DNA of 23,548 bases from Vairimorpha apis BRL 01. Taxonomy: Eukaryota > Microsporidia > Nosematidae. A program made the translations under genes and the position numbers. A model generated the notes under the pieces. The model did not search any database. It saw only the letters and a list, made by a program, of their open reading frames with translations, and was not told the origin of the DNA. Below are positions 5,714 to 15,284 of the stretch, piece by piece. Numbering within the stretch: the first letter of the stretch is position 1; every line of letters begins with the position of its first letter. Where the stretch lies: positions 1 through 23,548 of the forward strand of contig KE647353.1 of the NCBI GenBank assembly GCA_000447185.1, written 5' to 3'.

Positions 5714-6085
5714 ATTAAGGGGAACAGAATAAATGTAAAAATGTTTAAATATTTATAGAATAATAATTATTTTTAGTAGTTGTAGTATTTTAAAAATTTA
5801 TTATATAAATTTTATATTATGAAAATAATAATTTTTTTGAAAAAAATATGTATATAAATTAAAAATTTATTCTAACAAAATTTTTTACATTATTTTTATA
5901 TTAAAAATCTAATCTTATAATTTAACATTAACTTGTGTTTTAATTATTTATTTTATTAATAAATCAATAATTTTATAATTTTAAAAAAACTGATTTAAAA
6001 TTAAAAATATCTATCTTCATGCTAATACTAAAAATTTCCATTTTATAATAAAATACTTTTTTTTAATTTTTATATATATACCAAA
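5714..6085. other. AT-rich intergenic region 5' of TAF11
   Basis: Promoter side of TAF11. Beyond the CCCC motif at 5719-5722 and a TATATATA tract at 6072-6079, which sits just upstream of the structured island, nothing specific can be supported. Confidence 0.4.
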
Positions 6086-6240
6086 TTGTTGTTGTTGTAG
6101 GCAGACCTAAAGCTGTCTGTTTTAGGTCAGGTTTGAGATCAGAAACCTATGTGTTGATGTTAAACAATCAACACCATTTAGCTATAAAAAGAAAACCTTC
6201 TTCAACCACATGTTTAGTCCAAAACAACAACAACAGTTGT
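6086..6240. ncRNA. Candidate structured RNA gene (or MITE-like element): four hairpins in a 12-bp closing stem
   Basis: A 155-bp island of clearly higher complexity and G+C inside an A/T desert, without a long open frame. Ends: 6087-6098 (TGTTGTTGTTGT) is perfectly complementary to 6224-6235 (ACAACAACAACA). Inside, in order: an 8-bp perfect stem GACCTAAA 6104-6111 with 6121-6128; a 6-bp stem AGGTTT 6129-6134 with 6143-6148; an 8-bp perfect stem GTGTTGAT 6151-6158 with 6167-6174; a 5-bp stem AAGAA 6189-6193 with 6198-6202. Loops are 4-9 bases. GGTTTGAGATC at 6130-6140 resembles a pol III B box (GGTTCGANNCC). TATATATA lies just upstream (6072-6079) and a T7 run lies downstream (6267-6273). The structure is symmetrical, so the strand is unknown; the B-box-like match favours plus. 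I compared it by memory with tRNA, 5S, U1-U6, SRP, RNase P/MRP and hammerhead motifs and found no convincing match. A MITE with TTG-repeat terminal inverted repeats is the main alternative. Confidence 0.4.
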
Positions 6241-6647
6241 AATTATTAAATAATTTAAATTTAAAATTTTTTTAAATTTACAAAATATAATTTGAAAATT
6301 ATACTTAATGAGAAAAGTATATTTTTAATTTTTTTTAATTTTATAATATAATATACTTGAAAATTAAATCATAATGTTCATTATTATCTAAATAATATTT
6401 GTAAATTTGTAATTTAAAATACATTTGACACTTTTTATAACATGTATAATAAAAATTAAAATAATGTTTTATTAGTAAATTAGTATTTTTATCAAAATTT
6501 ATATTACCTATAAATACAAATAAAAATCAAAAAATAAAAATTTATTCTAAACATAAATATTTAAAAAAATCTATTATTTGATATTTACAACTCTTAAAAG
6601 ATAAATTTTAAATTTACAAATTATATATATTTTATTATACTTTTTAA
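6241..6647. other. AT-rich intergenic region downstream of CAP-D2
   Basis: Starts with the T7 run (6267-6273) that could terminate a plus-strand pol III transcript from the adjacent island. The rest is A/T-rich DNA 3' of the minus-strand condensin gene, with nothing further seen. Confidence 0.4.
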
Positions 6648-9600
6648 TTAACAAACACCTAATATCTTAAATTCTTCCATATGTTTAATATCATTTATAA
6701 ATTTTTCACTCATATTAAATTTATTATACATAACTTTTAACATATCTTTATTTTGACTTGTCTTTATTAATTTAAGAAAAATCATTTCTCTACTTTTTTC
6801 TTTTAGCAAAGGTAGAAAAAAATCTAAATCAGAATTATTAATTTCTTTTACAAATTTCTCATAAACTAACGTTACAATAAAATTGTCGTTTTCACTCATA
6901 TTATAAATTATGTTTCTACTTATTAGTTTAATTTCTTCATCTTCATCAAAAATTAAATTACTTAAATAAATCGATTTATTACCTAGTCTTAAAATATTTC
7001 TTTTTAATAAATTATAAATTACTAACAATGCATTTTTTCTAACAATTTTGTTCGTATCTATCAATCCTTCAAATAAAATATTAATTTCATCTACCATACT
7101 GTTGTATAACAACAAAAAATCTCCTATAGAAATTATACAATTTGATCGGATTTTATAATTATCAGATTTAAATCCTTTTGAAATAAAATGTTTGTATTCG
7201 GTAAAAAATTCAGAACTTATACACATCAATTTATAAAGTGAAATTATCGCAACTTCTTCCAATTCTTTTATATTTGTATATTCTATGATTTTTTTAGAAT
7301 ACTCATATAATAATCCATCAGGATTATATAAAATATCTTTTTCTTTTAAATAAAAGAAAAAATCAGCAATTTCTTCTTCTGATTTATTTTCCATTACGAA
7401 ATTATCGTTAAATTTTATTATTTTAGAATCATTTTCATCTCCATCATCTATCATAAGACTTAATCTACTAGCATTTATAGATTTTCTTCTTTCTTTTATT
7501 TCTTCAGGTATTTCTATATTAATTTTTTCATTTCTTTCTTTATATTTTCGCTCTAGTATTTCTAAATATCTTAGATGATTAATACCCACACAACCAACAA
7601 TATAAATAGATTTTAATATATTCAAATTTTTCTTCTCTAACATAATTAAAAGTGATTTACAAGCTTGTTCTGGATCTAAAGTATTTTTATATATAAAATT
7701 TACCGTATTTTCTAGTACTTGATAATCAAAGAATACCATTTTTAAAATATTTTTTATTATTAAATTTATTATTTCTTCACCTTTATCATTAATATTTTCT
7801 ATTATATTATGTTTATCTCTGCCATCATTTTCTAAACAGTTATTATCATTATTTATGTTTCCTTCTTTTTATTTTTTGAAACTTTGTCATTATTGAAATC
7901 TTCATAACTAAATTTATCGATCCTTTCATTCAATTTAAGTTTTAGTATATTGCAATAAACAATTAAAATATAATCAAGCTCTTCTTTTTGAGTTACATTA
8001 AACATCAAATTAGTTACATATTGCAATATATTATAAAACGTATCAAACTCAATATTCTTTTTGATACTATATAATAAAAAAGAAGTCTCTCTTAAATCTT
8101 TATTTCTTAATATATCATTAATCAACTCATCTTTTAAATTAATAATTCTTTTTTATTAAGAATAAAATAATTCTAGAGTAAGATTCTGTAAATGTAAATT
8201 TTTTTAAAAATGAAATTATAGAGATTTTTTTGTATTTTAAATTTATTATTATTTCTTTAAAAATATTGATTATACTGTAATTTTCCCATATTAAATCAAA
8301 TGTCTGTTCAAATGCTTCTTTCGAGTCTTCAATTTCATAAAATAAGCATAGTTTGATAAAATCGAGAAAAAGTATAATTTCAGATTGTAAATTATGATTT
8401 ACAAGAATCATAACATTTTTAAGTATGTTTTTTAAAATATTATGAAATGTCATAAGATCTTTTTTGTATTTTATAAGTGAGTCTTTATCAGTTTTATTAT
8501 GTCTCAAATCTCCTTCCTTATTTTCATTCTTAATATCATATGAACTAATGTCAGTTGTATTATTTAATTCGTGAATTGCGTTTATATCAACAGTAAGAAA
8601 AACATTATTTATTAATATATAATTGCAAATTTGAACACTTTTTTTTCTTACTATAATGGTTTTATCTAAGATTTTATCACCAACCTGTTTTATAACTTCA
8701 TTTCTGATATTTAATGGAATACTATCTAATTCAAATAATTTTTCTATTAGACATAAAGATTTATATCTGACGTTGAAATAAACATCATTCAATCTTTCTA
8801 ATAAAATTCGAATTTTATCATTTATTAGTTCTTCGATTGTGTTAATATTTTCACTGTTAAATTTTTTTATTACTAATATTCAAATCATCAACACAATCAT
8901 TTTCATTTTCTTGATTAATCAAATTTTTAATATAAATTATTTGATTAAAAACAATCTCAAGATAACAATTTCGAATATAATATAACTCATTATCAATAAA
9001 TCCTTCAAATTTTTTATAATTATGAAACAATTTAGGATAAGTTGAACTGAGCTGTGAAACTATCAAAGATACATTTTTTAAAACAATTGTATTTGTTTGT
9101 AATAAACACATTTTAAGAAAAACTTCAATTATTTCAGGTATAAATATTAAAATCGCGTAAACTATTTCACTGGAATTTTCATTAAGTAAAAAATTAAAAA
9201 TATAAGAGCAAATATTTTTTATGTTATTAATAGTGTTGTTAGGTAAATTCGATATATTATCATTATTTAATACATTTATAACATCTGAAGCATTTTCATA
9301 TTCTCCTTGTAAATTATTTTCTTTTAAAAAATTATAATTATTAGATAAATCTTCAGAATTGCAAGATTTAATATTTTGTAAAATTAATAATTTTAAATCA
9401 TTATTTATCTTTTTATTTTTATTAAGTTCTAAAATTTGAAATACTATTTTAAGCTTCCATTCTATATCATTTTGAATTTTTAAAAAAGAAAGAAAATCAA
9501 TCAAAAATTCATTAGTAGATACATTCTTATTTGATATGAGATTAAACAATAAATTATAAATTGTATCTGACATTTTATTAGTTTTCAAAATTTTAAATAA

Positions 9601-9705
9601 TTTAGATTTGTTGTGATATTGTAATGATAATATTGTAAAATGTTCAATGTTTTCAGTAATTGGTTTATTTTTTACACAGTTTAATAGGTTTTCAAGGTCT
9701 TGCAT
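6648..9705 (-). CDS. YCS4: Condensin complex subunit 1 (CAP-D2/Ycs4/Cnd1), split by three one-base frameshifts
   Basis: HEAT-repeat subunit of condensin, which compacts mitotic chromosomes with SMC2/SMC4. The gene reads across four frames: about 9705-8868, 8861-8154, 8148-7870 and 7865-6648. Repairing the three switches gives about 1018 aa. An N-terminal helical part is followed by the HEAT stretch NDVYFNVRYKSLCLIEKLFE then DKTIIVRKKSVQIC (about 8792-8620), which matches the CAP-D2 block on chromosome-arm HEAT repeats. The Cnd1 core follows: MCISSEFF, IRSNCIISIGDFLLLY, VRKNALLVIYNLL and DEDEEIKLISRNI (about 7230-6900). Switch points are T7 at 8862-8868 (one base too many), T6 at 8149-8154 (one too many) and the T5/T6 tract at 7866-7877 (one too few, best placed in T5). 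No other stops break 3 kb of frame. The start ATG has CCC just upstream (GGG, 9708-9710). Homology supports CAP-D2 over CAP-G or CAP-D3; the stretches between conserved blocks are too diverged to align by eye. Confidence 0.85.
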
Positions 9706-12181
9706 GAGGGTGTATTAAGAGTAAAATAAAAAATATAATAAATAAATTTAAATATAATATTTTTATTGAAAAAATATTATTTTTGCATAAATATATTTTT
9801 TCTTGAATAGTTTCAAATAATATTATAAATTTTATTTTAGATTTTATAATGATATATAAAAATGTTTTTTATACTCTATTCTTTAGTTTAAAAAAATTTG
9901 TATAATATAATATGATTTTTTGTATTTAAACTTTAAAAAGTATTTCAATTTTAAAGTATTAAATTTATTAAACATTTTATATCTGTTTTAATTTTTTTTA
10001 TACAATAATTATCATACAATTACAAAAAAATGAAAATAATTTTACAATTTAATTTGAAATTTTAGAAGATTTTACATTTTATAATTTTTAAATAATTATT
10101 AAAATAAAATCTACACTTTTTTTGTATAAATCATTCTTTTTTACATCAAAAAAATATGATTAAAATATCTAAATTTTTACATTGAATCTTATATCATTAA
10201 CACTGATTTTTAATTAAAGTAAATTAATTATTTTTAAAGACAAAAGTTAATTTTATATTAGATATATATATTTACAAGTATAAAAACATAGAAAGTTATG
10301 CATATGATAAATAAAAATATATTTAAAAAATAAATAAATTATATATATATATATAAAGTATGATATTAAAATGATTAATAAAATAAATACATTATACAAA
10401 ATAAAACAATTAAATAATATATTTAATTTATCTATTAGAATTTTTTGAAAAGAAATATTGTAACCAAAAATATAAAAAAAATGAAAATAATTTTACCTAA
10501 AAAATATTTTTTTGTATACAAGTTTAAATATTTTATTTATATGCATAGTATTGTATCTGTGCAAACAATAGTTTGTTGGTCTGTTTCTTAAGTTTCTCTA
10601 TCTTAGATTTATTTTTATTTTCAATATAAATTATTGAATTTTTTTAAAAGTTATGAATCAGATATATATTTCGAATAGTTTTGTACTTTTAAGTTTCTTT
10701 ATATATTTTATAAGAATATTATTTTACATATCGTACAGATGTTATCACCTATGATATTTTTTTGGTTTTGTTTTCATATTAAAAACATAATTCATTTGAA
10801 AATTAAACAAATTTTAAAAGTTATATAATTTGCTTCATTATAGATCAATAATGATTCGTTACTATTTTTAAGTATATTAACTCATTCATACAATTGACGA
10901 TTTTTTTAGTCAAATAAAGTAATATATCAAAAATATTATGATAATAATTTACAAATAAATAAAAATGCATTATGATATTATGATAAATTTAATTATTTTA
11001 AATTAAAATATTAATTATAACAGTAATGTAATTTTATTTAATTTATTTAATATTGTAAAATTTTTAAATAGTCTTAGTTGTAAATATAATTTTTTTTAAT
11101 AATTAAAAATCATTTTTAATTAACTAAATTTAAGCAAATTATAATTTTATAATTTTAAAACAGTTTAATAAAATTATTTAATATAAGAAAGCATATTAAT
11201 TTAAATATTAAATTAAATTTTTTATTTTATTAAATGTAGATTCATAATAGAATATATCAAAATAAAGTTTTAAAAAAAATTATTTTATTTTAATGGTATA
11301 ATATTTTTCATATTTTTTAAAATATATTCATTTTATATGGTTCTAGTTTTTGTAAATTAATTTTAATCTTCTAAAAAAATGAGATAGCAATTTGGGTTGC
11401 TTTTTTAAAATATACTAAAAAAAACATTTTATAAATTCAAAATAATAAAACATTCATTCATTCTTAATACATTATATTAAATTAACTATATTAAATTGAA
11501 TTAAATGTTTAATAAACAGATTTAAATAATAATGAAAATTTAAAAAGAATATAAATATATATTAAAATTATGTTAAATTATAAAATAGATAATATAATGC
11601 TAATTAGAATAAATATATTCACATTAAAATAAGAAAATCTAGAAATTTATATTTATTTAAATATTTATTTCATTTTTTCTATCTTTTATTTTATAAAATA
11701 TTTTTTAATTTAATCTTTAATTTATATAAGAAATATTTTTAAATAATATATAAAACTTTTCATTTGCAATTTTTTTCTAATCTTGTATTAAATTATAAGT
11801 CATTGAATTTATTTTATGTTTTGTAATATATTTAAATTTGTTTTTTATGAAATATTAATTTTTTTAATTGACACTTATCAATATGATATCTTTCATGTTA
11901 AAACATAAACCAATAAATTATTTTAAAAATGACATCTGTTTGAGAAATACTTTATTAAAAAACATTTCAATACATTACATCTATCTTAAAGACATCTATT
12001 AAAAAACAAATCTAACATATTGTATTTTTAATCAATTGTTATATTAAAAGACTAGCATTGTTTTATAAAATATTTTTGTTTATCAACATATTTTTCTAAT
12101 AAGAAACAATAATCATATAATATTTTAAAACTAAGTTTTATAAATTATATCAACCATTCATTTCTCAATATTCTTATTTGT
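9706..12181. other. 2.5-kb AT desert between CAP-D2 and the homeobox gene
   Basis: Mostly featureless A/T. Three spots differ: a higher-complexity stretch at about 10533-10760 with a short coding-like minus-strand frame, a (TA)n tract at about 10358-10371, and a small hairpin with a T6 tail at 11386-11406. No convincing full gene was found on either strand. Confidence 0.45.
11386..11406 (+). other. Short hairpin followed by a T6 run
   Basis: AGCAA (11386-11390) pairs with TTGCT (11397-11401) around the loop TTTGGG, directly followed by T6 (11401-11406). An A7 run at 11373-11379 could extend the pairing. G and C are scarce in the surroundings, so the compact motif is noticeable, but no transcript end is otherwise indicated. 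Confidence 0.2.
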
Positions 12182-12553
12182 TTAATGAATTATCAGACAT
12201 TCCCTTCTAGCTTTGACCAATAACATGTACAATGTGGAAATTGGAATATCAACAATTGTAGGTGTGCTATCTGAATATTCGTCTATAGGTATATCTCTTT
12301 TTTTTGTCATTTGTCTAGTATTTTGAAACCATTTTTGAATACTTTTAGGATGTACATTAATTAAAAGAGCAATATCAATGATAGTAGAAGTAGAAGGAAA
12401 TTTGCTTATCTCAAACACATTATTTAGTACTAAAGTTTGAAATCTGGTTTTTCTAGTTTGTTTACCATATTTATTAGCTGTAGTTGATATTCTTCTTAAT
12501 TTAAGTAATCCTAGCAATGACTGCCATTCTTTTGAATTGTAACGTATGTTCAT
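12182..12553 (-). CDS. Homeobox (homeodomain) transcription factor
   Basis: DNA-binding regulator expected in the nucleus. The homeodomain occupies about residues 28-87 of 123. Arg/Lys-rich N-terminal arm residues (KQTRKTRF, 31-38) lead into helix 1 (about LVLNNVFEISKFP, 41-53). Helix 2 is around TIIDIALLINV (57-67), and the recognition helix SIQKWFQNTRQMTKKR is at 71-86. Taking W75 as homeodomain position 48, the invariant N51 (N78) and R53 (R80) are kept, while position 52 is Thr in place of the usual Arg. The short tail (88-123) has no recognised domain. Microsporidia are known to carry a family of small single-homeodomain proteins of this size. The start is supported by CC (GG, 12556-12557), a weaker form of the start motif. 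The gene stands alone between two deserts of about 2.5 and 2.7 kb. Confidence 0.92.
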   Translation of the reverse strand: MNIRYNSKEWQSLLGLLKLRRISTTANKYGKQTRKTRFQTLVLNNVFEISKFPSTSTIIDIALLINVHPKSIQKWFQNTRQMTKKRDIPIDEYSDSTPTIVDIPISTLYMLLVKARRECLIIH

Positions 12554-15284
12554 AAGGTTTACAAAATTTTGATTTTTTTTAAATAATTTAATCCTTTATA
12601 TTGATCAAATTTATGAGTCACTTTTGATCTAAAAAAAATATTTAAATCAACATAAATTTTAGCAATTTGAAATATTTTATTACTGAAAAATAAAAATATT
12701 TGTATTAAGTATTTATTTTTAATTTGATATATATTTTTCTATTATTTTTAATTGTATATAAGTTTTTTAATAATTTATTTAATATGTTTAGATTTTTTTG
12801 GCATCTTTATAAACAAAACGAATACTAAAATTTTAAAAATGAAGTTATACAATCTATTAAGAGTTTTTATATTAAAATAAAATTTATTTATTTGTTTTAG
12901 ACAGTGTGTTTATTAAATTAATTTATTTTATATTTAAATTTTAATATATATATAAAAGAAAAAATTATTTTATGATATTAACTAAAGTTGTATTTTTTAA
13001 ATACATTTATATCAAAAATTAATTTATATGTATTTATGTTATATAAAAATATTTGGCAGTTAAATTTATAGCTGTAAAATAATTATTTGGAGGTATAGAC
13101 CGTGAATAACAATAAATAAATGTTTTTTACATTTTAATTTTACGAATAAAGACAAATAATTTATATGAAATTTCGAATTATTTATTGGTATTAAATCGAT
13201 TTTGACATTTTGAAATTTTTAACACGCAAAAAAGTATTAATATAATGTCATCAGTACATAATTAATACACAAATAATTAAATTATTTTAAATTCATATAA
13301 AAAAAACATCCAGTTAAGATTGTTTTGATTATTACATCATGATCAGTAATAGAAATTAATTAACAAATATTTTTTTTATTTGAATGATCTTATAATATAT
13401 ATAAAAAATTTGATATGTTCTTAATTAATAAACAATTTAAATTCAAAACTGTTTATAAGTTTTTTGCAGTTAAAACATAATAAAATAATTGTTTATAATT
13501 TTATTATATAAATAGTATTTTAAAATATATAGAAAAAGTTTATTTAAATATTTTTAAAGTTATTTTTATATGTTCTATTTAAATCAATTTTATTTTGCAA
13601 ATAATAAAATATTCTCAGTAATAAGAATCTTATTACATTGTTTTTGTATATCATAATATGTTGAAAATTTTAATTACATAAAAAAATTTGAAATTGGTTT
13701 TAAACGTTTAAATAAAAAATTTAAATATATTTTTTATGTATCATATAATATAATAAAAAAACATATAAATATATTATAAAACTTTGGTTATTCAAATTTT
13801 ATAACATTTTTTATATTTTTAATAAATCTTTTGTATCAAATCTTTTAATTTACACAAAATGACAAATTTTAATAAAATTTAACAAATGTCAAACAATCAA
13901 TAAAGTTAAAAAAAATTTAAAAACTTTATTATTTTATAGTCCAATTTATATAAAAAATGATTTATTTACACTTATGTTTTTTAAATTTTTTAAATATCAT
14001 TTTTTTTAAATTAATGTTTAAATTAAATTTTACTTATCAAAAATTTTGATAAAACAAATTAATAAATAAAATTTTTTTATTGTCATGGTCATAATAAATT
14101 TTTATTATAAAACATTTCAAAGTTATTTAAGGTATAATAATTTGATAATTACAAAAAATTTATACTCTTTAATGTATAATTCTTAAGTATTACATATATT
14201 TATATTACACAGTAAAAAATTGAAGAAATTATGTAATGAAAAATATTTTTGCATTATTAACTTTTTATTCTATAGTTTTTTTTAAGTAAATTCTAAATTT
14301 TTAAATATAAAAATTTAGGTATTTAAATATAGTTTAAAAAGTTAAGTTGTTTTTTTCATATTTAAAAAAATTCATCTACTAAAAAAACTATTTAATAAAT
14401 TTTTTTATTTACAAAAGTCTTATTTATAGTCTTATTTTAAAATAATAAAATTTTTAATTTTATATGAAAAAAAAATTAAAATAAAAATTTTGTTAAAATC
14501 AAAACTAGTTTAATATTTTTTTTTATTTTCGAAAAATTAGTAAAATTACATGATTATCCTAATTTAATTATATTTTATATTGATCACTGATTTTTTATTG
14601 TGTAAAAATATATATATATATTTATTTAATAAATATATAAATGTAATTTTTTATGTTAATAATGTATATTTTAAGTTATGTAAAGATTTTTAAAATTCTA
14701 AAGAAATCATATTTAACTTTTTAACTTTTGTATATACATATAAAAAAATCTTTTGTTTAAATTATTTAAATAAAAATTTTTTTTAAATATTTTTTTATAA
14801 TAAGTTTAGTATATTTAGAAAATTTCAAAAAAAATTTATATTAAAATTTTTATTGTTTAATAAATTAGACATAATAAAAATAATTTTTATAATATCTGAA
14901 GTGTATTTTACATTTTATATAAATGTAATTTTCTTTAAAATAACGATTATAAGAAATAAAATTTTTATTAGTTTTGTGTATCAATTATTTAAGAAAATAA
15001 AAAAATTCATATATTTAAGATTTGAAAAATCTTTTTATTAATTTCTAATTTTCATACATTTTTTAAAGAAATAAAAATCTTCATCTTATTTACTATACAT
15101 AATTTGAGCTTTTTTTATACATAAGCATTTTCTTTTTTTTGTAATTTTCTTTTTATAATCTGTTTTAATGAATATTATTGATTTTCATTTTTTTAATATC
15201 AATCTTTTTTCTTAAAATATATTTAATATTAGTAGCAATTTTTGATTAAATATTTAAATTTAATATTTATTTTATATAAAACCC
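12554..15284. other. 2.7-kb AT desert between the homeobox and FYR genes
   Basis: The longest gene-free stretch in the window. It is A/T homopolymer and dinucleotide texture throughout. A 62-codon TTG-initiated frame at 14853-15041 has only the Ile/Phe/Lys composition expected by chance. A small less A/T-rich patch lies at about 13085-13110. It separates two divergent genes, so it must hold both promoters, but none can be pinpointed. Confidence 0.5.

Follow-up and report, generated by a model that had tools for sequence, protein, structure and literature searches.

Positions 6093-6235 of the window (the whole analysed stretch of 23,548 nucleotides on contig KE647353.1 of Vairimorpha apis BRL 01) are, with a probability of about 0.95, a solo LTR of a Ty3/gypsy-type retrotransposon, 143 bp long and running from TGTTGT to ACAACA. 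The element lies in the intergenic stretch from TAF11 to a condensin gene, and its G+C content is 35.7%, against 18.1% for the window; the remaining 781 bases of this intergenic stretch contain 77 G+C. It is an ordinary remnant of a mobile element. The plus strand of the LTR is defined as the direction of the coding frame adjoining copies C5 and C171, two copies with identical LTRs by which the element was identified. The features referred to below are the following:

6088..6092, no strand: left copy of the 5-bp target-site duplication, GTTGT (end-aligned comparison of copies)
6093..6235, + strand: solo LTR, 143 bp, TGTTGT...ACAACA (copies, ends, duplications, junctions)
6093..6110, + strand: end of the integrase frame as in C5, last five codons and stop, CCRQT-stop (18 nt aligned to C5; the window copy reads the same)
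6102..6119, + strand: hairpin CAGAC/GUCUG (6102-6106/6115-6119), alternative to the first stem of the earlier note; paired in 95% of cells in 21 copies
6130..6140, + strand: putative B-box-like word GGTTTGAGATC; similar in many copies
6151..6174, + strand: hairpin GUGUUGAU/AUCAACAC; paired in 95% of cells in 21 copies
6183..6189, + strand: TATAAAA, possible LTR promoter; found in 16 of 21 aligned copies
6210..6235, + strand: ATG with a frame that stays open as far as the LTR end, presumed gag start (C171 frame, copy comparison)
6236..6240, no strand: right copy of the 5-bp target-site duplication, GTTGT (end-aligned comparison of copies)

At least 23 dispersed copies of the repeat, the window copy included, are present in the organism's own genome (5,960,447 bases, 223 contigs), all copy counts being lower bounds. 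Searching the genome with positions 6040-6290 returned 18 places, the window's own among them, and the diverged copy C199 as query added four more (C222:9802-9935, C202:29613-29739, C205:14295-14419 and C134:724-830). One further copy, C204, was reached via inside sequence, and C111 as query yielded no further copies in the same genome. Identity between the window copy and the 17 others of the first search ranges from 97% down to 71%, indicating that copies of different ages are present; with its two nearest copies 97% identical, the phrase "recent arrival" in the earlier note is a fair one.

The borders of the copies were set by aligned end words, replacing the inner TGTTTT that an automatic search had wrongly taken as border in seven copies. 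The ends TGTTGT and ACAACA are common to the copies and are mutated in C12, C188b and C111 (17 copies with a 3′ end). Of the 18 copies of the first search, 15 entered the test for a target-site duplication, C171 and C5 being left out for having inside sequence on one side and C178b for being cut off by a contig end. An exact 5-bp duplication flanks 12 of the 15, the mutated 3′ ends of C188b and C111 having been placed by alignment once the flanks had been seen; C12 matches at four of five positions, and C145 and C98 at three. When the right flanks were shuffled 20,000 times, at most 6 exact duplications arose against the 12 observed; the mean was 0.80, close to the yield expected from pairs left unmoved by the shuffling. 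Anchored duplications of 3, 4 or 6-9 bp were found in none of the 15 copies. The later copies C222b and C202b match at four of five positions each, so that, of 17 copies pooled, 12 are exact, 3 have a single mismatch and 2 have two; this pool leaves out C205 (inside sequence on the left, 1/5), C204 (inside sequence on the right) and C134 (5′ end degraded, judged by eye). C171 and C5 match at two of five, as expected with inside sequence on one side.

Both marks expected at the edges of an LTR, short inverted TG...CA ends and a fixed short duplication (4-6 bp), are seen here, the latter at 5 bp. Solo LTRs of yeast Ty elements likewise have short inverted ends and a 5-bp duplication left once the inside is lost; the window LTR has the same pattern, and the yeast LTRs are longer. 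The earlier note had described a 12-bp perfect terminal inverted repeat, which is indeed present (6087-6098 against 6224-6235), although not all of it belongs to the element: the right arm lies wholly inside it, whereas only 6 nt of the left arm do so, the remainder being the 5-nt duplication and one flanking base. The repeat is in part accidental, the duplicated GTTGT by coincidence lengthening TGTTGT. Taken by itself, the element has a 6-bp terminal repeat, TGTTGT/ACAACA, and what had been taken for simple-repeat termini are these LTR ends lengthened by chance.

The class of the element is decided by its junctions with retrotransposon sequence: it is an LTR and not a DNA-transposon MITE, because four other copies adjoin reverse transcriptase (RT), RNase H, integrase, polypurine-tract or primer-site sequence. 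Directly upstream of the C5 copy and in the same orientation, open pieces match RVT_1, RT_RNaseH, Integrase_H2C2 and rve in that order, which by domain matching is the Ty3/gypsy order. The pieces are split by one stop and by frame changes, for which reason we regard this copy as broken. A polypurine tract, AAAGAGGGAAGAG, stands directly before the TGTTGT of C5, and the integrase piece, which along its full length shares 57% identity with a Nosema granulosis 'Transposon Tf2-6 polyprotein', reads through AAAGAGGGAAGAG into the repeat and stops there (...KREE-CCRQT-stop). On the other side of the element, the C171 LTR, identical to that of C5 over 142 bp, leads through ATT and TGGCGACAG into an open frame and, beyond it, an N run. 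TGGCGACAG complements the 3′ end of tRNA-Ser(CGA) plus CCA over 9 nt, the best of 43 tRNA genes with ends as called by Infernal (next best 7 nt), and is a putative primer-binding site on the strength of that modest match. An earlier candidate primer, tRNA-Arg (best match 6 nt, 42 genes with ARAGORN ends), was superseded when the Infernal ends were adopted, ARAGORN having apparently extended the two tRNA-Ser genes by one base too many at either end. Both comparisons started one base beyond the first base after the LTR, with no effect on the match.

The C171 LTR sits in a LINE-like reverse transcriptase copy (L013, C171:68600-73700); a paralogous, nearly identical version of the target stretch that lacks the insertion is found at about L013:3800-3832, beyond an N run. 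The right flank of C5 is GACAT, against the GTTAC expected for C171, and the two look like separate insertions. As judged from sequence similarity, C205 and C204 present both junctions again in decayed form. In C205, a stretch at 12863-13363, 70% identical to the C5 pol, and a decayed zinc-domain stretch are followed by a polypurine tract, GTTGAAGAG, and the repeat; in C204, a decayed repeat is followed by TGGCAACAACGC, related to the primer-site stretch, and by a relative of the start of the C171 frame (73-74% identical), beyond which lies an integrase relative interrupted by many stops. The RT-RNase H-integrase order, the polypurine tract and the primer-binding site by which a Ty3/gypsy LTR is recognized are in this way found via C5, C205, C171 and C204. 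No inside sequence of the C5 and C171 type was found in the flanks of the other copies, which were covered for about 2-2.5 kb or more, or to the contig end, for 15 copies and for about 100 bases for C222b, C202b and C134, save for three loci, the window included, in which 24-42 bases match at the nucleotide level. These matches to the inside of C5 (29 bp at window 11028-11056; 42 bases in L017 and 24 in L012) were taken as chance.

Dispersal with target-site duplications, forecast by the earlier note should the sequence be an element, was borne out by the genome search; the class that it proposed, a MITE, was not. A non-autonomous DNA transposon, moved in trans by a transposase and having TGT-type inverted ends, would account for a short, dispersed repeat with inverted 6-bp ends and a fixed 5-bp duplication, the very pairing of terminal repeat and duplication by which MITEs are classified. 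Families of just this description, of unknown superfamily, with terminal inverted repeats beginning TGT and 5-6 bp duplications, are reported from Nosema bombycis, N. antheraeae and N. ceranae in excerpts of PMC4405373. What makes a MITE very improbable here is that the repeat has a polypurine tract and pieces of reverse transcriptase, RNase H and integrase at one border and a primer-site-like stretch and an open frame at the other, and that the orientation of both junctions is the one needed by an LTR. Another way to account for a single LTR is assembly collapse, with the whole element present in the organism. No complete copy with both LTRs around one inside is assembled in this genome, the C171 copy running into Ns and that of C5 starting at a contig end, which would mean that whole elements are hard to assemble. 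Against a collapse, 15 of the 18 first-search copies are assembled through both sides, 12 of these with exact duplications, and a 143-bp repeat should be short enough for reads to span; we consider a collapse improbable.

The other reading offered by the earlier note was a structured noncoding RNA gene, perhaps transcribed by pol III; such a gene might have spread to many places in the genome or have been recruited from an LTR. The four perfect hairpins in a row that the note described are all there (6104-6111/6121-6128, 8 bp; 6129-6134/6143-6148, 6 bp; 6151-6158/6167-6174, 8 bp; 6189-6193/6198-6202, 5 bp), as is the B-box-like word, which is similar across many copies. The TATA tract upstream (about 6070-6080) and the T run downstream (about 6268-6274) exist as well, but outside the element, in A/T-rich flank. 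On the plus strand, 6086-6240 has a folding energy of -48.2 kcal/mol (z -5.4), matched by none of 200 dinucleotide shuffles, and the 6102-6119 and 6151-6174 hairpins far exceed in pairing their slid controls, which reach at most 41% and 66%, respectively, on the 21 aligned copies (C134 and C204 lying outside this set). The other stems of the earlier note are paired in 78%, 85% and 80% of cells, against at most 55%, 64% and 65% when slid; for the terminal stem, the slid control is 97% paired at +3 too and is uninformative because of the triplet repeat. On the other hand, the opposite strand folds alike (-49.1, z -4.9; 0 of 200 shuffles as good), so that neither strand is singled out by its fold; for 6093-6235, the element by itself, z is -4.1 on the plus and -2.5 on the minus strand, and single-copy folds of 17 other copies, plus strand, range from z -5.3 down to -0.1. 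Changes on both sides of a stem are few (1 cell for 6151-6174 and 2 for 6102-6119; 4, 0 and 1 for the other stems, in copies that are related), and many of the stem changes are G-C to G-U, also a product of C-to-T mutation. The earlier note's remark that the sequence matches no known RNA family holds: Rfam gave no family at gathering score in the whole window and, relaxed, only chance-level hits in 331 bases (MIR474, E 1.1; CRISPR-DR22, E 3.8), and ARAGORN found no tRNA in the window. With no Rfam family, dispersed copies in place of one locus, target-site duplications and retrotransposon junctions, an RNA gene is highly unlikely. Selection on RNA structure is possible. In L093 (C222b) and L096 (C134) the B-box-like word is GGTTCGAGAT, nearer the pol III B box than the window's GGTTTGAGAT.

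Under the solo-LTR reading, a Ty3/gypsy-type element would have integrated into the spacer that separates TAF11 from the condensin gene. Its integrase would have cut the target with a 5-bp stagger and so have produced the GTTGT seen on both sides, a mechanism suggested by the element type. Recombination between the two LTRs would then have taken out the inside and one LTR, a step that we infer because internal sequence is lacking while the duplication is kept. In the whole element, the LTR would hold the promoter, at TATAAAA, and the coding frame would reach into an LTR at either end: the first 18 nt of the LTR would end the integrase frame, and the ATG 27 nt past the TATA box would open the presumed gag frame. 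The frame from the ATG at 6210 runs on in C171 through the primer-site stretch to the gap, and the ATG with an open frame to the LTR end is found in 14 of 20 copies examined, the six lacking it being diverged copies. From these alignments, the coding frame seems to extend into the LTR on either side of the element; the gag of Ty1 also starts within its own LTR. The border residues EEC occur in two (P0001 and P0003, not P0002) of three Nosema granulosis proteins compared and may mark the same LTR border there.

Retroelement sequence is abundant in this genome: at E 0.001, genome-wide searches gave 58 RVT_1 and 15 rve matches, many with internal stops, and several retroelement lineages are present within less than 6 Mb. 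Besides C5 itself and C204, the C5 integrase has nine other genome matches, 23-29% identical, which by that measure would belong to other lineages. Among 120 listed relatives (of 7,993) of the MCM4 encoded in the window, those with species names that come closest are from Vairimorpha ceranae and V. bombi (75%), V. necatrix (71%) and Nosema granulosis (70%); one further entry is 100% identical. As to the neighbouring genes, the minus strand of window 6648-9705 holds the condensin-subunit gene, with a Cnd1 match in 6648-7739, and after it further minus-strand frames, 8139-8453 and 8857-9705; these may be parts of one gene broken by frame changes, or may reflect assembly errors. Window 12182-12553, minus strand, encodes a 123-aa homeodomain protein (Pfam E 6.9e-11).

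LTR retrotransposons of Nosema bombycis were reportedly described by Xu et al. in 2006, and the 'Tf2' polyproteins of Nosema granulosis have an integrase of the same family as that of C5. Ty3/gypsy elements are well documented in microsporidia, as excerpts of PMC4202319, PMC3614468 and PMC13174016 attest, and excerpts of PMC5012567 place LTR elements in Nosema species. As far as the descriptions excerpted from PMC4202319 and PMC3614468 allow comparison, the present element is like those of other microsporidia in its RT-RNase H-integrase order and differs in that its LTR is only about 142 bp long and seems to overlap the frame at both ends. No report of solo LTRs of microsporidia was found in the literature searched, by titles and abstract starts, and the word 'solo' is absent from the main text of PMC4202319, PMC7313128, PMC4405373, PMC3614468 and PMC5012567. 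The Nosema MITE families excerpted from PMC4405373 resemble the present repeat, by description and not by sequence, in being small and dispersed, in their TGT ends, in a 5-6 bp duplication and in host group, and differ in being filed as MITEs.

The identification of a solo LTR removes a candidate RNA gene and shows that, in a genome rich in A/T, such a remnant can be mistaken for a MITE or a structured RNA. It also points to a very compact LTR, seemingly sharing sequence with the coding frame at both ends. Since a TGT start and a 5-6 bp duplication are marks of the present solo LTR, some of the Nosema MITEs of unknown superfamily that show them may be solo LTRs as well. A broader proposal, to which we give rather less than an even chance, is that the Nosema TGT MITE families are solo LTRs of this compact Ty3/gypsy lineage. 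On that view, the polyprotein frame would start in the 5′ LTR and stop in the 3′ LTR, each about 142 bp long, and two RNA hairpins of the LTR would be maintained by selection. The borders, the duplication length and the features of the junctions allow the small TGT...ACA repeats of Nosema and Vairimorpha to be sorted anew into MITEs and solo LTRs.
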